Shown piece by piece: positions 3,526 to 52,385 of a stretch of DNA of 64,000 nucleotides. The translations under genes were made by a program, and so were the position numbers. Below the pieces are notes generated by a model, which saw only the letters and a program-made list of their open reading frames with translations, was not told where the DNA came from and did no database searches. Every line of letters begins with the position of its first letter. The first letter of the stretch is position 1. Origin of the DNA: Geobacillus subterraneus (GTDB taxonomy: Bacteria; Bacillota; Bacilli; Bacillales; Anoxybacillaceae); the NCBI RefSeq assembly GCF_001618685.1, contig NZ_CP014342.1:2294001-2358000 (forward strand), given 5' to 3'.

Positions 3526-4293
3526 TTAAAACGGCCGCCGGTTCAGCCATTGGCCGCCGTCGACTGTGATGCAAGCGCCGTTAATGTAAGCGGCTTCATC
3601 CGAAAGCAAAAACGAAGCGACCGCCGCGATTTCTTCCGGCGTCCCGAGCCGCCCGAGCGGCACGCTTTCCAACGTCATCCGCTCCGCTTCCTCTGATTCC
3701 CAAAGCCGCTCCGCCCCGCCTGTCCGCTCGATCGGCCCCGGGGCGATGGCATTAACGCGGAAGCCGTATTTCTTCCCCCACTCGACCGCCAATGTGCGCG
3801 TCATCGCCAGCACCCCGGCCTTGGCGCTTGCCGAATGAATGACCCCCGCGCCGGCATGCCAGGCGTACGTCGCAATGATGTTGATGATGCTCCCTTTCAA
3901 GCCGCGCGGAATCCAATAGTTGCCGACTTCACGGCTGCAGTAAAACGTTCCGTTCAATACGATGTTGATGACGCTGTTCCAACCGTTGATCGACAGCTTT
4001 TCCGCCGGACAAATAAAATTGCCGGCCGCGTTGTTAACGAGAGCATCAATGCGGCCAAACTCCGCATCGACCCGTGCGACCATGTCCGCGACTTGCTCCG
4101 GATTGCGCACATCCATCGGAACAACAAGCACCCGCCCGCCGCCGGGCGTTTCCATTTCCCGCTTAGCCTCTTCCAGCGCTTCGGCCCGCCTTCCCGTAAT
4201 GACAACGTTCGCCCCTTCAGAGACAAACCGCTTCGCCATATATTTTCCCATTCCGCTCGACCCGCCGGTAACAATGATGACTTTTCCGTTCAT
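3526..4293 (-). CDS. fadH: Probable 2,4-dienoyl-CoA reductase (SDR family)
   Basis: The 255-residue protein is a short-chain dehydrogenase with the NAD(P) motif TGGSSGMG near residue 9, NNAAGN near 89, and HSASAKAG where classical SDRs have YxxxK. That substitution is typical of dienoyl-CoA reductases, which keep the lysine and use a different tyrosine. The enzyme would reduce 2,4-dienoyl-CoA esters during beta-oxidation of unsaturated fatty acids. It corresponds to B. subtilis FadH (YkuF) and keeps the ykuI-ykuF-ykuE neighbourhood. It is divergent from ykuE across a 263-bp gap. Confidence 0.88.
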   Translation of the reverse strand: MNGKVIIVTGGSSGMGKYMAKRFVSEGANVVITGRRAEALEEAKREMETPGGGRVLVVPMDVRNPEQVADMVARVDAEFGRIDALVNNAAGNFICPAEKLSINGWNSVINIVLNGTFYCSREVGNYWIPRGLKGSIINIIATYAWHAGAGVIHSASAKAGVLAMTRTLAVEWGKKYGFRVNAIAPGPIERTGGAERLWESEEAERMTLESVPLGRLGTPEEIAAVASFLLSDEAAYINGACITVDGGQWLNRRPF

Positions 4294-49444: not shown

Positions 49445-49524
49445 CGCCAAAACCTCCAAGGCAAAACATTCATTGTTCATTATATATGAGGTTTGGCGAA
49501 AAAACTACCCTTTTTTTGCCGGCT

Positions 49525-50326
49525 TTAGCGGTTGTCGATTTTTTCCGGGTATAGGTCATGGTTGAGCAGCCGATATTCAGCCATTTGTTCATATTTTGTC
49601 CCGGGGCGTCCCCAGTTGCAATACGGGTCGATGGAAATGCCGCCGCGCGGGGTGAATTTGCCCCATACTTCGATGTAGCGCGGCTCCATCGCGTTGATTA
49701 AGTCGTTCATAATGATGTTGACGCAGTCTTCGTGAAAGTCGCCGTGGTTGCGGAAGCTGAACAAATACAGCTTGAGCGACTTGCTTTCGACGCATTTTTT
49801 GTCCGGGATGTAGCTGATGTAAATGGTCGCGAAGTCCGGTTGTCCGGTTTTTGGCAACTGTTTGCCGACGCAAACAGGTGGACTATCTCTTATTCTTATT
49901 CAGCTGCGATACTGAATAAGAACCCTTGCGCTTCCACCGCGGCAACAATGTGCAACGGTGTACTCTACTCTCTTCCTTCAGAGCTACTCTTACTCGCTTC
50001 ACTCTGAAGTGATTTCGATAGTCTCTGCACCTTCCTCAAACGGAGCAACCGCTTGCCGTCTGAGGCTTGGCTCAGGGTCGGAAAAGTAGAGGGCCCTTTC
50101 TTCCCCTGAATTCACAAGGTTTAGCCGACAGCGTCACCGCTGAAGTGTGCCCTTATTGACACAGCGTCGTAAACTCCGGACAATTGAACTTCACGAAATA
50201 ATCCCGGTCAGGATGTTTGTTGTCAAACACTTCAAGAAGATTCGGATTGTACGTGAACGAATACGTCGTCCCTTGATTGCCAAGCAGTGTCAAGTCTTTC
50301 AATTCTTCCTCTTTTCTTCCAGACAT
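49525..50326 (-). CDS. queF: NADPH-dependent 7-cyano-7-deazaguanine reductase, interrupted by a group I intron
   Basis: QueF reduces preQ0 to preQ1 in queuosine synthesis. The coding parts are 50326-50159 (56 codons) and 49854-49525 (109 codons plus stop). Together they make a 165-residue protein, the length of B. subtilis QueF. Exon 1 ends with NCPEFTTLC, where C56 is the catalytic cysteine, and exon 2 continues [15 protein letters not shown] with the conserved aspartate. Between them lies a 304-nt intron in phase 0. Without splicing the frame stops two codons into the intron. The ATG at 50326 has AAGGAGGAAGG upstream. It ends the queCDEF operon under the preQ1 riboswitch. Confidence 0.93.
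49855..50158 (-). ncRNA. Group I intron in queF
   Basis: The 304-nt insert has the marks of a group I ribozyme. P1: exon TGTGT (50163-50159) pairs with GCACA (50150-50146), giving a U-G pair at the 5' splice site, loop of 8 nt. Conserved blocks follow: GGCTAAACC (50126-50118), GAGCCAAGCC (50073-50064), GAGACTATC (50025-50017) and GATAGTCC (49887-49880). They match in order the Azoarcus-type core (P4, P6, P7, P7'). A perfect P9 hairpin CTGTTTGC/GCAAACAG (49877-49858) precedes the last base, a G at 49855. GG at 50152-50151 can pair with CC of exon 2 as a short P10. No homing endonuclease is encoded. Confidence 0.93.
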
Positions 50327-50373: not shown

Positions 50374-51108
50374 TTACACGCCGCGCTTGTTTCCCCAAAG
50401 GAGCGTGTGCAGCTGCGGCAGGATGTGGACGTCGGCCAGCTCCTCCGACTCGGCGGCTTGCTCCACGAGCCATTCCAACCGGCCGAGAAGCTTTGCGCGA
50501 AGCGCCTCTACATCCAAATCCCCTACATCGGCGTTGCCGGTCTGCAAATAAAACGGAACGCCCGGGTAACGGCGGTGCGCTTCTTTTGCGTACGCCAAAT
50601 CAACCTCATCAAAGACGACGACTTTCAAACTGACGCGCCGCGTCCGGTTTTGATCTTTCTGCAACCGCCCGATGATGGCATCGAGCGCCGCCCAGTCGGT
50701 GTCCATCCCCGAACTTGGCGGTTTCGGGGAAATGGTGACATCATCAACATCAAGAAGCCAGTCTTGCCAGCGGCTTCCTTGCGTTTCGACCGCCACCCGC
50801 ACCCCTTTTTCATGAAGAAGCGCAACGAGCTCACCGAGTGCGGCGATCAGCAGCGGGTTGCCGCCGGAGATCGTCACATGGCGGAAGCGGAGCCCGCCAA
50901 TGGCTTCAAGCCGCCGCCAAATGTCGTCGGCCGTCAGCTGCTCGATCTCCTCTTTCGCCGACCCGTCCCACGTAAACGCCGAATCGCACCAGCGGCAGCG
51001 GTAATCGCAGCCGGCGGTGCGCACGAACATCGTCTTTTGGCCGATCACCATTCCTTCCCCTTGAATGGTCGGACCGAAAATCTCCAATACCGGAATCGTG
51101 CGCGCCAT
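50374..51108 (-). CDS. queE: 7-carboxy-7-deazaguanine synthase (radical SAM)
   Basis: QueE converts carboxytetrahydropterin to CDG with S-adenosylmethionine and an iron-sulfur cluster. The 244-residue protein has the cluster motif CDYRCRWCD (CX3CX2C) near residue 34 and TISGGNPLL. The ATG at 51108 shares one base with the queD stop (TGATG). A GTG one codon earlier is an alternative. It is third in the operon and lies 47 nt before queF. Confidence 0.95.
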
Positions 51109-51545
51109 CACCGCTCCCCCGCTTTCGGCCGGTAGACGACGTAGCTTGTTGGCGATTCACGAACAAACACTTGCAAACATTTCGGCTTGTGCGGCAGCGC
51201 ATCCAAATAGCCCTGAACGATCTCATAAATCGTGCGCGCCACCACTTCCGTCGTCGGAAACCGGTTCGGGTCATAGCGGTCAAACCAATCGGTGTGATCA
51301 TTAAGCAGCGTGTGGTCTAATTTTCCGTGGACAAGCTTCTTTAACGTTTGGAAGTTGACTAAAAAGCCGCTTTCATCCAACTCATCGCCAGCGACGGTCA
51401 CATTGACGATGTACGTATGGCCGTGCACGTTGGCGCAGCGGCCGGCCGCTTCATGAGGGATAAAATGGGCAGCGGCGATCTGCATATCTTTGTTGAGTTC
51501 GTAGCGATAATGATGGGCTACTTGCGGATAAAGCTGATGCATCAT
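51108..51545 (-). CDS. queD: 6-carboxy-5,6,7,8-tetrahydropterin synthase
   Basis: QueD turns dihydroneopterin triphosphate into carboxytetrahydropterin. The 145-residue protein has the zinc-binding histidines (AAHF, and VHGHTY) and the catalytic cysteine in GRCANVHGH. The start overlaps the queC stop by 4 nt (ATGA). GGAGG lies 10 nt upstream. Confidence 0.95.
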
Positions 51546-52213
51546 CGCGCTTCCACCTCCGCTTTCCCTCGCAAATATTCATCCAACCCGCGCTTGCGCA
51601 ACACGCACGCCGGGCACTCGCCGCAACCGTCAGCGATCACGCCGTTATAGCACGTCAGCGTCTTCGTGCGAACGAATTCAAGCGCCCCAAGCTCATCGGC
51701 CAATTTCCACGTTTCCGCTTTCGTCAGCCACATGAGCGGCGTATGAATGACAAACGGATAATCCATCGCCAAATTCAGCGTCACATTCAGCGATTTGATA
51801 AAGATGTCGCGGCAATCCGGGTAGCCGCTAAAATCCGTTTCACACACTCCGGTGACAAGATGGCGCGCCCCCCGCTGCTTGGCAAGCACCGCAGCGAACG
51901 ATAAAAACAATAAATTGCGCCCATCCACAAACGTTGTCGGCAACTCGCCTTCCTTTTGTTCAATGGCGATCTCGCCGCGCGTTAAGGCGTTCGGCGCCAA
52001 TTGTCCAAGAAGCGACATATCAAGCACCGTATGGCGGACACCGAGCTCGTCGGCGATCGATGCGGCGACGTCGATTTCCCGCCGATGACGCTGGCCATAA
52101 TCAAACGTCACCGCCTCTACTTCCGCAAACTGCTTTTTTGCCCAAAATAAACACGTTGTGCTGTCTTGGCCGCCGCTAAAGACGACGACCGCCTTTTCTT
52201 CCTTCATCTTCAT
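51542..52213 (-). CDS. queC: 7-cyano-7-deazaguanine (preQ0) synthase
   Basis: QueC uses ATP and ammonia to convert CDG to preQ0. The 223-residue protein has the PP-loop SGGQDSTT near residue 13, TFDYGQRH, and a C-terminal zinc site [14 protein letters not shown]. The ATG at 52213 has AAGGAGG 9 nt upstream. Earlier in-frame TTG and GTG codons are too close to that site. It is the first gene of the operon behind the preQ1 riboswitch. Confidence 0.95.
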
Positions 52214-52260
52214 CACAATCAACCTCCTTCTGAATCGGCAGAAGAAGAGGTTTCCGAAAC

Positions 52261-52289
52261 AAAAAAGGCCATACCCCTAGGATACAGCC
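52261..52289 (-). terminator. Expression-platform terminator of the preQ1 riboswitch
   Basis: On the minus strand GGCTGTATCC pairs with GGGTATGGCC (with wobble pairs) and is followed by TTTTTT. CCTAG in the stem can pair instead with CTAGG at the 3' end of the aptamer, giving an antiterminator. Confidence 0.8.
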
Positions 52290-52291
52290 GT

Positions 52292-52328
52292 CCCTAGTTT
52301 TTTATAGAGGGTTTTGCTAGAAACCTCT
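52292..52328 (-). promoter_or_regulatory. PreQ1-I riboswitch aptamer upstream of queCDEF
   Basis: The minus strand reads AGAGGTTTCTAGC, then CCCTCTATAAAAAACTAGGG. This fits the preQ1-I class: 5-bp P1 (AGAGG with CCTCT), a small loop and an A-rich tail that forms the pseudoknot. The known outcome for such leaders is that preQ1 binding stops expression, giving feedback on the pathway. Confidence 0.92.
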
Positions 52329-52385
52329 CCCGTACAAGCGTACGGAATTGTGATTCTTCTGTTTTCTTTATTTACTATACCATAC

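Follow-up and report, generated by a model that had tools for sequence, protein, structure and literature searches.

A group I intron directly after the catalytic cysteine codon of queF in Geobacillus subterraneus and related Bacillales

We identified a group I intron directly after the catalytic cysteine codon of queF in Geobacillus subterraneus, as evidenced by a match to the Rfam family RF00028, covariation among related introns, common splice sites, empty sites in kin and selection on the exons. Judging from sequence, we consider it highly probable that this copy is a functional group I intron that encodes no homing endonuclease, and that it belongs to an old queF element of Bacillales that has been repeatedly lost. 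The intron lies in a stretch of 64,000 nucleotides, referred to here as the window, with positions counted from its first letter. The coordinates given in the preliminary description of this DNA (49855-50158, 304 nt, a split between TGT and CCA) proved exact to the base. The locus comprises the following features, in which queC, queD and queE are names that we presume from the look of the sequences.

52288..52333, minus strand: PreQ1-type riboswitch ahead of the que operon (RF00522, 36.4 bits, below the cut-off of 39, E = 4.2e-6)
50374..52222, minus strand: queC, queD and queE, upstream of queF (ORFs 51542..52222, 51108..51545 and 50374..51111)
50159..50326, minus strand: queF 5' exon, 56 codons, ATG to TGT (Cys56) (translation; Pfam QueF on the spliced frame)
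49855..50158, minus strand: group I intron, 304 nt, no open frame of 60 aa (RF00028, 65.7 bits; orthologous introns)
49524..49854, minus strand: queF 3' exon, 109 codons and stop (translation; pN/pS 0.053 over 22 intron-bearing genes)

On the minus strand the insert runs from 50158 to 49855, with C as its first base and G as its last, and parts TGT (Cys56, the catalytic cysteine codon) from CCA; the 5' exon ends in ...ACGCTGTGT at 50159 and the 3' exon starts with CCAAAAACCGG at 49854. Leaving the insert out restores, as had been claimed, a single queF frame of 165 codons in phase 0, which is recognized as QueF (Pfam PF14489, E = 1.6e-34). Stops occur in all three forward frames of the insert and TAA is its second codon, where reading of an unspliced message ends. 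The two exons are the sole queF matches in the genome that holds the window (G000), and tgt is present elsewhere in that genome, which gives its queuosine pathway an end use. Since the sole queF is split while queC, queD, queE and tgt are kept, G000 without splicing should be without QueF and retain the rest of the checked pathway.

The last triplet of the intron, TTG, opens a 110-aa frame over the queF 3' exon (window 49525-49857, minus strand), and TTG, ATG or GTG closes the intron in 19 of the 22 queF introns described below. A gene caller could therefore report a short QueF without the catalytic cysteine, and we caution that the 3' exon may be called alone as QueF in genome annotations.

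The Infernal search proposed in the preliminary description returned a full-length match to RF00028 (65.7 bits, cut-off 50, E = 3.5e-16, window 49859-50168, minus strand), the only Rfam RNA family above its cut-off in the 64-kb window. The fold of the intron RNA lies 5.24 SD below that of 100 dinucleotide shuffles, none of which reaches it (0/100). An alignment of 13 of the 22 queF introns, with the nine longer than 590 nt left out, supports the stems listed here in the 5' to 3' order of the transcript; P7 is the guanosine-binding helix.

50146..50163, minus strand: P1, UGUGUC/GGCACA over the 5' splice site, with the conserved U-G pair and an in-frame UAA in the loop (13-intron alignment; TGTGT exon end in 22/22)
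50129..50142, minus strand: P2 hairpin, CAGCG/CGCUG, one compensatory pair (13-intron alignment)
50113..50119, minus strand: P3 5' strand, CCUUGUG (one pair is U-A in 8 and C-G in 5 of 13)
50072..50109, minus strand: P4 (UCAGGG/CCCUGA) and P5, whose loop L5 is the site of the endonuclease frame in relatives (13-intron alignment; frame scan)
50027..50071, minus strand: P6 and P6a (13-intron alignment)
50019..50023, minus strand: P7 5' strand, GACUA (invariant in 13/13)
49974..50012, minus strand: P7.1, compensatory changes in 9 of 11 pairs (13-intron alignment)
49935..49960, minus strand: P7.2, compensatory changes in 4 of 6 pairs (13-intron alignment)
49924..49930, minus strand: P3 3' strand, CGCAAGG (13-intron alignment)
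49892..49923, minus strand: P8, compensatory changes in 6 of 13 pairs (13-intron alignment)
49881..49885, minus strand: P7 3' strand, UAGUC (13-intron alignment)
49858..49877, minus strand: P9 hairpin, CUGUUUGC-GUCG-GCAAACAG, a perfect 8 bp, followed by UUG with the terminal G at 49855 (hairpin in 22/22 introns)

The U-G pair in P1, the perfect P9 hairpin and the terminal G that had been noted earlier are thus all present. The U-G pair at the 5' splice site is found in 13/13 aligned introns and P9 is a hairpin of 5-8 bp in 22/22 queF introns, while P10 amounts to two base pairs only (CC with GG, by eye). RNAalifold on the 13 introns yielded 75 pairs, 27 of them with changes on both sides. We dropped 12 of these by hand (an exon-P9 helix, a competitor of P7, and lone or two-pair stems) and added five P7 pairs as a pseudoknot, giving a final structure of 68 pairs. 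P7 is absent from RNAalifold's own prediction, in which its 5' strand is paired elsewhere, as is expected of a pseudoknot. All 68 pairs are kept across the 13 introns (100% of 876 cells paired), a figure that is favoured by the partial derivation of the structure from the same sequences, and sliding of the partners lowers pairing to 38-48%. The independent part of the support is the both-sided changes, which occur in 26 of the 68 pairs against a shuffled mean of 12.9 (0/500 shuffles as high). Compensatory changes are present in each of P2, P3, P5, P6a, P7.1, P7.2 and P8; P1, P6 and P7 are invariant and P4 varies on one side only, so that the support for these four comes from conservation and not from covariation of their own.

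The 68-pair structure contains the pseudoknotted P3/P7 core with P4, P6 and P8. It also has two additional stems, P7.1 and P7.2, which separate P7 from the P3 3' strand. Insertion of P7.1 and P7.2 is a group IA trait and is absent in subgroup IC3, to which the compact Azoarcus tRNA-Ile intron belongs. By this criterion the two stems point to subgroup IA. The core motifs had been described as Azoarcus-like, which is borne out for the P3-P8 core that the two introns have in common; an IC3 label was rejected on the presence of both P7.1 and P7.2, and the queF intron differs from that of Azoarcus in adding these stems and in not being hosted by a tRNA gene. P2, P7.1 and P7.2 are named as classifying features of group I introns in the accessible part of a review (PMC3984707).

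A search of other Geobacillus queF genes, likewise suggested at the outset, found the intron in one of 14 genomes of the genus, namely in the window copy, with the other 13 empty. In the family, queF is split at this codon in 17 of 41 genomes and intronless in 24; the insertion reads TGT|CC in 17/17, and intron length ranges from 303 to 1201 nt. Empty genes in 13/14 genus and 24/41 family genomes mark the insert as a presence/absence element. We also scanned 84,980 species with an exact 20-base core word, an approach that covers contigs of at least 3 kb and misses diverged introns. The scan returned 19 stretches, of which 17 are queF introns and two (Sphingobacterium L069 and Ktedonobacter L071) are chance word matches with no RF00028 match. 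Twelve of the 17 match family genomes already counted and five are new, from Aeribacillus composti, Ectobacillus panaciterrae, Niallia nealsonii, Niallia sp. NCCP-28 and Bacillus sp. 165. This brings the total to 22 distinct queF introns, all at the same insertion codon and all with common predicted splice sites (start CA(A/G), end G).

An even draw of the order gave a QueF match in 375 of 397 genomes. With splits judged from the number of matches and the best E, the truly split genes outside the family were G143 and G401 among the matches listed, and these seem to be the introns from Aeribacillus and Bacillus sp. 165 included above; an apparent split in G376 was rejected as a contig-edge artefact. 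In G433, QueF is matched once more some 20 kb from the full gene, there only partially and in its 3' half (G433:C6:132505-132735, L120). Among 135 phage records retrieved with the queF intron none covered 80% of the query (best 27%), and the plasmid search found no copy.

Six of the 22 queF introns contain a full-length endonuclease frame (288-316 aa) that begins near L5 and extends into the ribozyme core; the frame scan covered 17 introns, and the remaining five (249-377 nt) are too short for a 288-codon frame. All six frames match PHROG 8446, 'HNH endonuclease' (best E 2.6e-12), and their pN/pS of 0.06-0.26 over the central 266 codons indicates purifying selection. The corresponding frame is broken in G015 and shortened in G035, and the rest of the introns either lack it or could not accommodate one for their length. 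We regard these proteins as putative HNH homing endonucleases, based on the PHROG match and on a CxxC-HH-CxxCH motif read by eye. Searches of the frames gave no Pfam domain over its cut-off, no PDB sequence match and no phage relative by tblastn, and a fold search with a mediocre model (pLDDT 62) gave nothing at E <=0.001 (best E 2.9). Relatives of the endonuclease were found in 0/14 genomes of the window's genus, in a search run without a positive control, and a rough endonuclease motif scan of the 64-kb window gave no match. The window copy has no frame of 60 aa on either strand. We therefore rejected both a homing (endonuclease-bearing) intron, for want of an endonuclease frame, and an IStron, as 304 nt with no such frame hold no IS transposase.

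The exons on either side of the insertion are under purifying selection. The 22 intron-bearing genes have a pS of about 0.7 and a pN/pS of 0.14 (5' exon) and 0.053 (3' exon), and the 24 intronless genes have a pN/pS of 0.143 and 0.023, respectively. The 3' exon lies behind a stop codon yet is constrained, which would hardly be so unless it is translated. The exon end TGTGT, which pairs in P1, occurs in 22/22 intron-bearing and 9/24 intronless genes (Fisher 2.9e-6, an optimistic value as the sequences are related). A stop at the second intron codon is common to 20/22 introns and comes after 12 codons in the two from Niallia; such stops possibly stall ribosomes while the intron folds, according to the accessible part of the review cited above (PMC3984707).

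We envisage that the que operon is presumably transcribed from the PreQ1-type riboswitch and that, on an unspliced message, the ribosome would halt at the UAA seen in the P1 loop. The intron RNA would fold from P1 to P9 and, going by the chemistry of the family, guanosine bound in P7 would attack directly behind the U at 50159; the 5' exon end released in this way would attack behind the G at 49855, and the exons would be joined at UGU-CCA to encode the 165-residue QueF. Relatives at the same site with an HNH-type frame in L5 should copy the intron into intronless queF alleles, and repeated loss afterwards would lead to a patchy distribution.

Several other explanations deserve weighing against a working intron. 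An intein, a translational bypass or an IS-type insert would each interrupt a coding gene cleanly, but stops in all three forward frames exclude an intein, the window copy has no frame of 60 aa, and ribozyme covariation fits none of them, so that we find this hardly credible. It is very improbable that the intron is recognizable but dead, with queF off and the cell salvaging preQ1 or queuine. Such decay would agree with the long end branch of the window copy (0.37, the longest) and with the 13 of 14 intronless genomes in its genus; yet every counted pair holds in G000, with one compensatory change in P2 that is unique to it (C-G for U-A), tgt is present, and the exons are intact, with pN/pS against G005 of 0.10 in the 5' exon (0.019/0.185) and 0.07 in the 3' exon (0.004/0.061), although these ratios come from few changes. 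Barely better are the prospects of a domesticated intron whose splicing is regulated (e.g. by GTP, temperature or 7-deazaguanine intermediates) downstream of the PreQ1 riboswitch of the operon. A riboswitch of this type heads the operon and was found in three of eight related loci scanned (L056, L061 and L062), and splicing of flagellin introns in thermophilic Bacillus is reportedly temperature-dependent. However, a selfish element is favoured by the patchy presence (17/41), by endonuclease frames whole in some copies and broken in others, and by an alignment that reveals no conserved stem beyond those of group I introns.

A stronger rival concerns the origin of the window copy, which might have been gained recently from outside the genus and not inherited. 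Its sister G005, with a queF 97% identical, and 12 further genomes of the genus searched are empty, and a 46-row exon tree groups G000 with G005 (100/93) within its genus; at least eight state changes are needed on that tree, the fewest that fit. Divergence of the 22 introns nevertheless tracks that of their exons (Mantel r = 0.90, p 1e-4), which suggests that the element has long resided in the host line and been lost many times. The values for G000 fall near an intron/exon regression computed from the other introns, and like its host the G000 intron is rich in GC at the variable core columns (0.55; the other 21 range from 0.27 to 0.46). Moreover, the nearest relative found for its intron is at most 86% identical over the core, and exon differences from G005 are not clearly clustered at the site (4/15 within 30 nt), so that co-conversion around the G000 site was set aside. 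The longest end branch of the 22 introns (0.37) and a weakly supported place in the intron tree (80/37) let both an old resident and an import from an unsampled high-GC donor stand. On balance we consider recent gain rather unlikely, though well within reach, and favour long residence with repeated loss.

Intronless alleles may also bear a footprint of the element. In two genera of Anoxybacillus (g2 and g3), intronless alleles encode PKTN in 4/4 and intron-bearing alleles PKTG in 12/12.

L089 (G020), L090 (G017), L087 (G023) and L088 (G028): intronless PKTN alleles (queF codons at the insertion site)

The P1-pairing TGTGT occurs in 0/4 of these intronless alleles. Their identity to intron-bearing genes is 0.74 at -15..+30 versus 0.87 in the flanks (48 pairs), whereas pairs of intron-bearing genes show no dip (0.89 at the site, 0.88 in the flanks, 66 pairs). 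The site window, which was picked after the dip had already been seen, ranks 1, 2, 4 and 14 lowest of 433 for the four alleles. The ranks of intronless alleles in genera g6 and g7 are 11 (G036), 141 (G034) and 208 (G037), and in the remaining taxa outside g1-g3 the site/flank difference between intronless and intron-bearing genes is only -0.015. Intronless pairs from the window's genus have identities of 0.874 at the site versus 0.944 in the flanks (78 pairs). In two genera whose sampled genomes lack a queF intron (27 and 10 genes), the difference is -0.016 and -0.034, and restricting the comparison to similarly diverged pairs gives -0.030 and -0.046. Asn or Arg replaces Gly in 7/37 genes of these two intron-free genera and Arg stands at the same position in G008 of the window's genus, so that the residue alone is not special.

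The g2/g3 pattern would fit either escape from homing or the spread of one flank type by co-conversion, and the recoding of the intronless alleles is perhaps a form of resistance to homing. It is possible, if doubtful, that the system as a whole is an arms-race gene drive, in which an HNH-bearing intron targets the Cys-Pro codons, intronless alleles of two Anoxybacillus genera have evaded it through the recoding of some 45 bp around the target, and the window copy is a drive stripped of its nuclease. If true, synonymous changes together with Gly-to-Asn four residues after the cysteine would keep the enzyme and lose both the cleavage target and the P1 pairing.

In PMC full text, which leaves most subscription journals out of reach, we found no report of a group I intron in queF. 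The preliminary description had likewise known of none, and this holds for the literature searched; with 22 queF introns found, the insertion is no singleton. queF is a new host gene and lineage for a known kind of element, flagellin, recA and nrd hosts being already on record in the accessible part of PMC3984707. A tRNA-modification gene thereby joins the short list of bacterial protein genes that host group I introns. Intronless, endonuclease-bearing, decayed and bare copies coexist in one bacterial family, making gain, decay and loss of a homing intron, as well as evolved resistance, testable in one gene, and most of the named carriers are cultured strains. In Vibrio phage phi-pp2, two 7-cyano-7-deazaguanine reductase genes flank a homing endonuclease gene, which is another homing enzyme adjoining a QueF-type gene; the accessible part of that paper mentions group I introns elsewhere and none in the reductase gene, and we rejected it as an earlier report (PMC3468402).

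In the genus, 11 of 14 genomes have at least one group I intron over the RF00028 cut-off. We take several of the host genes to be flagellin genes and three to be ribonucleotide reductase-like (L005, L006 and L007, in G007, G008 and G003); in L006 the matched region is 623 nt long and possibly includes an extra frame. In G005 and G004, two introns lie 106 bp apart in apparently one flagellin-like gene (G005:C1:216452-217220 and G004:C1:3004678-3005486; L012, L015, L010 and L017). The strongest match in the genus (L004, G011:C1:1377774-1378121, minus strand, 105.9 bits) is in a long coding gene that looks to us like a DNA polymerase. The window genome carries one more group I intron, which lies in a flagellin-like gene at its 3' end (G000:C1:139542-139879, L002, 62.2 bits). 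Kinship between it and the queF intron was rejected, blastn giving no alignment at E up to 10; against the other introns of the genus, the only blastn alignments of the queF intron spanned 20 nt (L020, E 0.005) and 9 nt (L004).

Beyond these, the flagellin intron of Geobacillus stearothermophilus, which Hayakawa and Ishizuka are said to have described in 2009, is likewise a group I intron in a protein gene of a thermophilic Bacillaceae; it occupies another gene and site, and the likeness is one of description. The RNA polymerase beta subunit gene of Bacillus phage AR9 (NC_031039, H4/L091) shows a weak similarity of 73% over 82 nt of the core (E 0.3). The coding sequence of that gene, a different host from queF, is assembled from six segments, and a gene for an HNH homing endonuclease is annotated within it. 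A viral contig (L052, about base 3932) has an exact 20-mer of the P6-P7 region of the queF intron in another gene, followed by a GIY-YIG-like frame (by eye), and falls below the RF00028 cut-off. Group I introns have also been described in recA, nrdE and nrdF of the Bacillus cereus group, some of them similar to phage introns, in the accessible part of PMC3984707. Likened by description, these share with the queF intron a residence in conserved coding genes, although the host genes are different.
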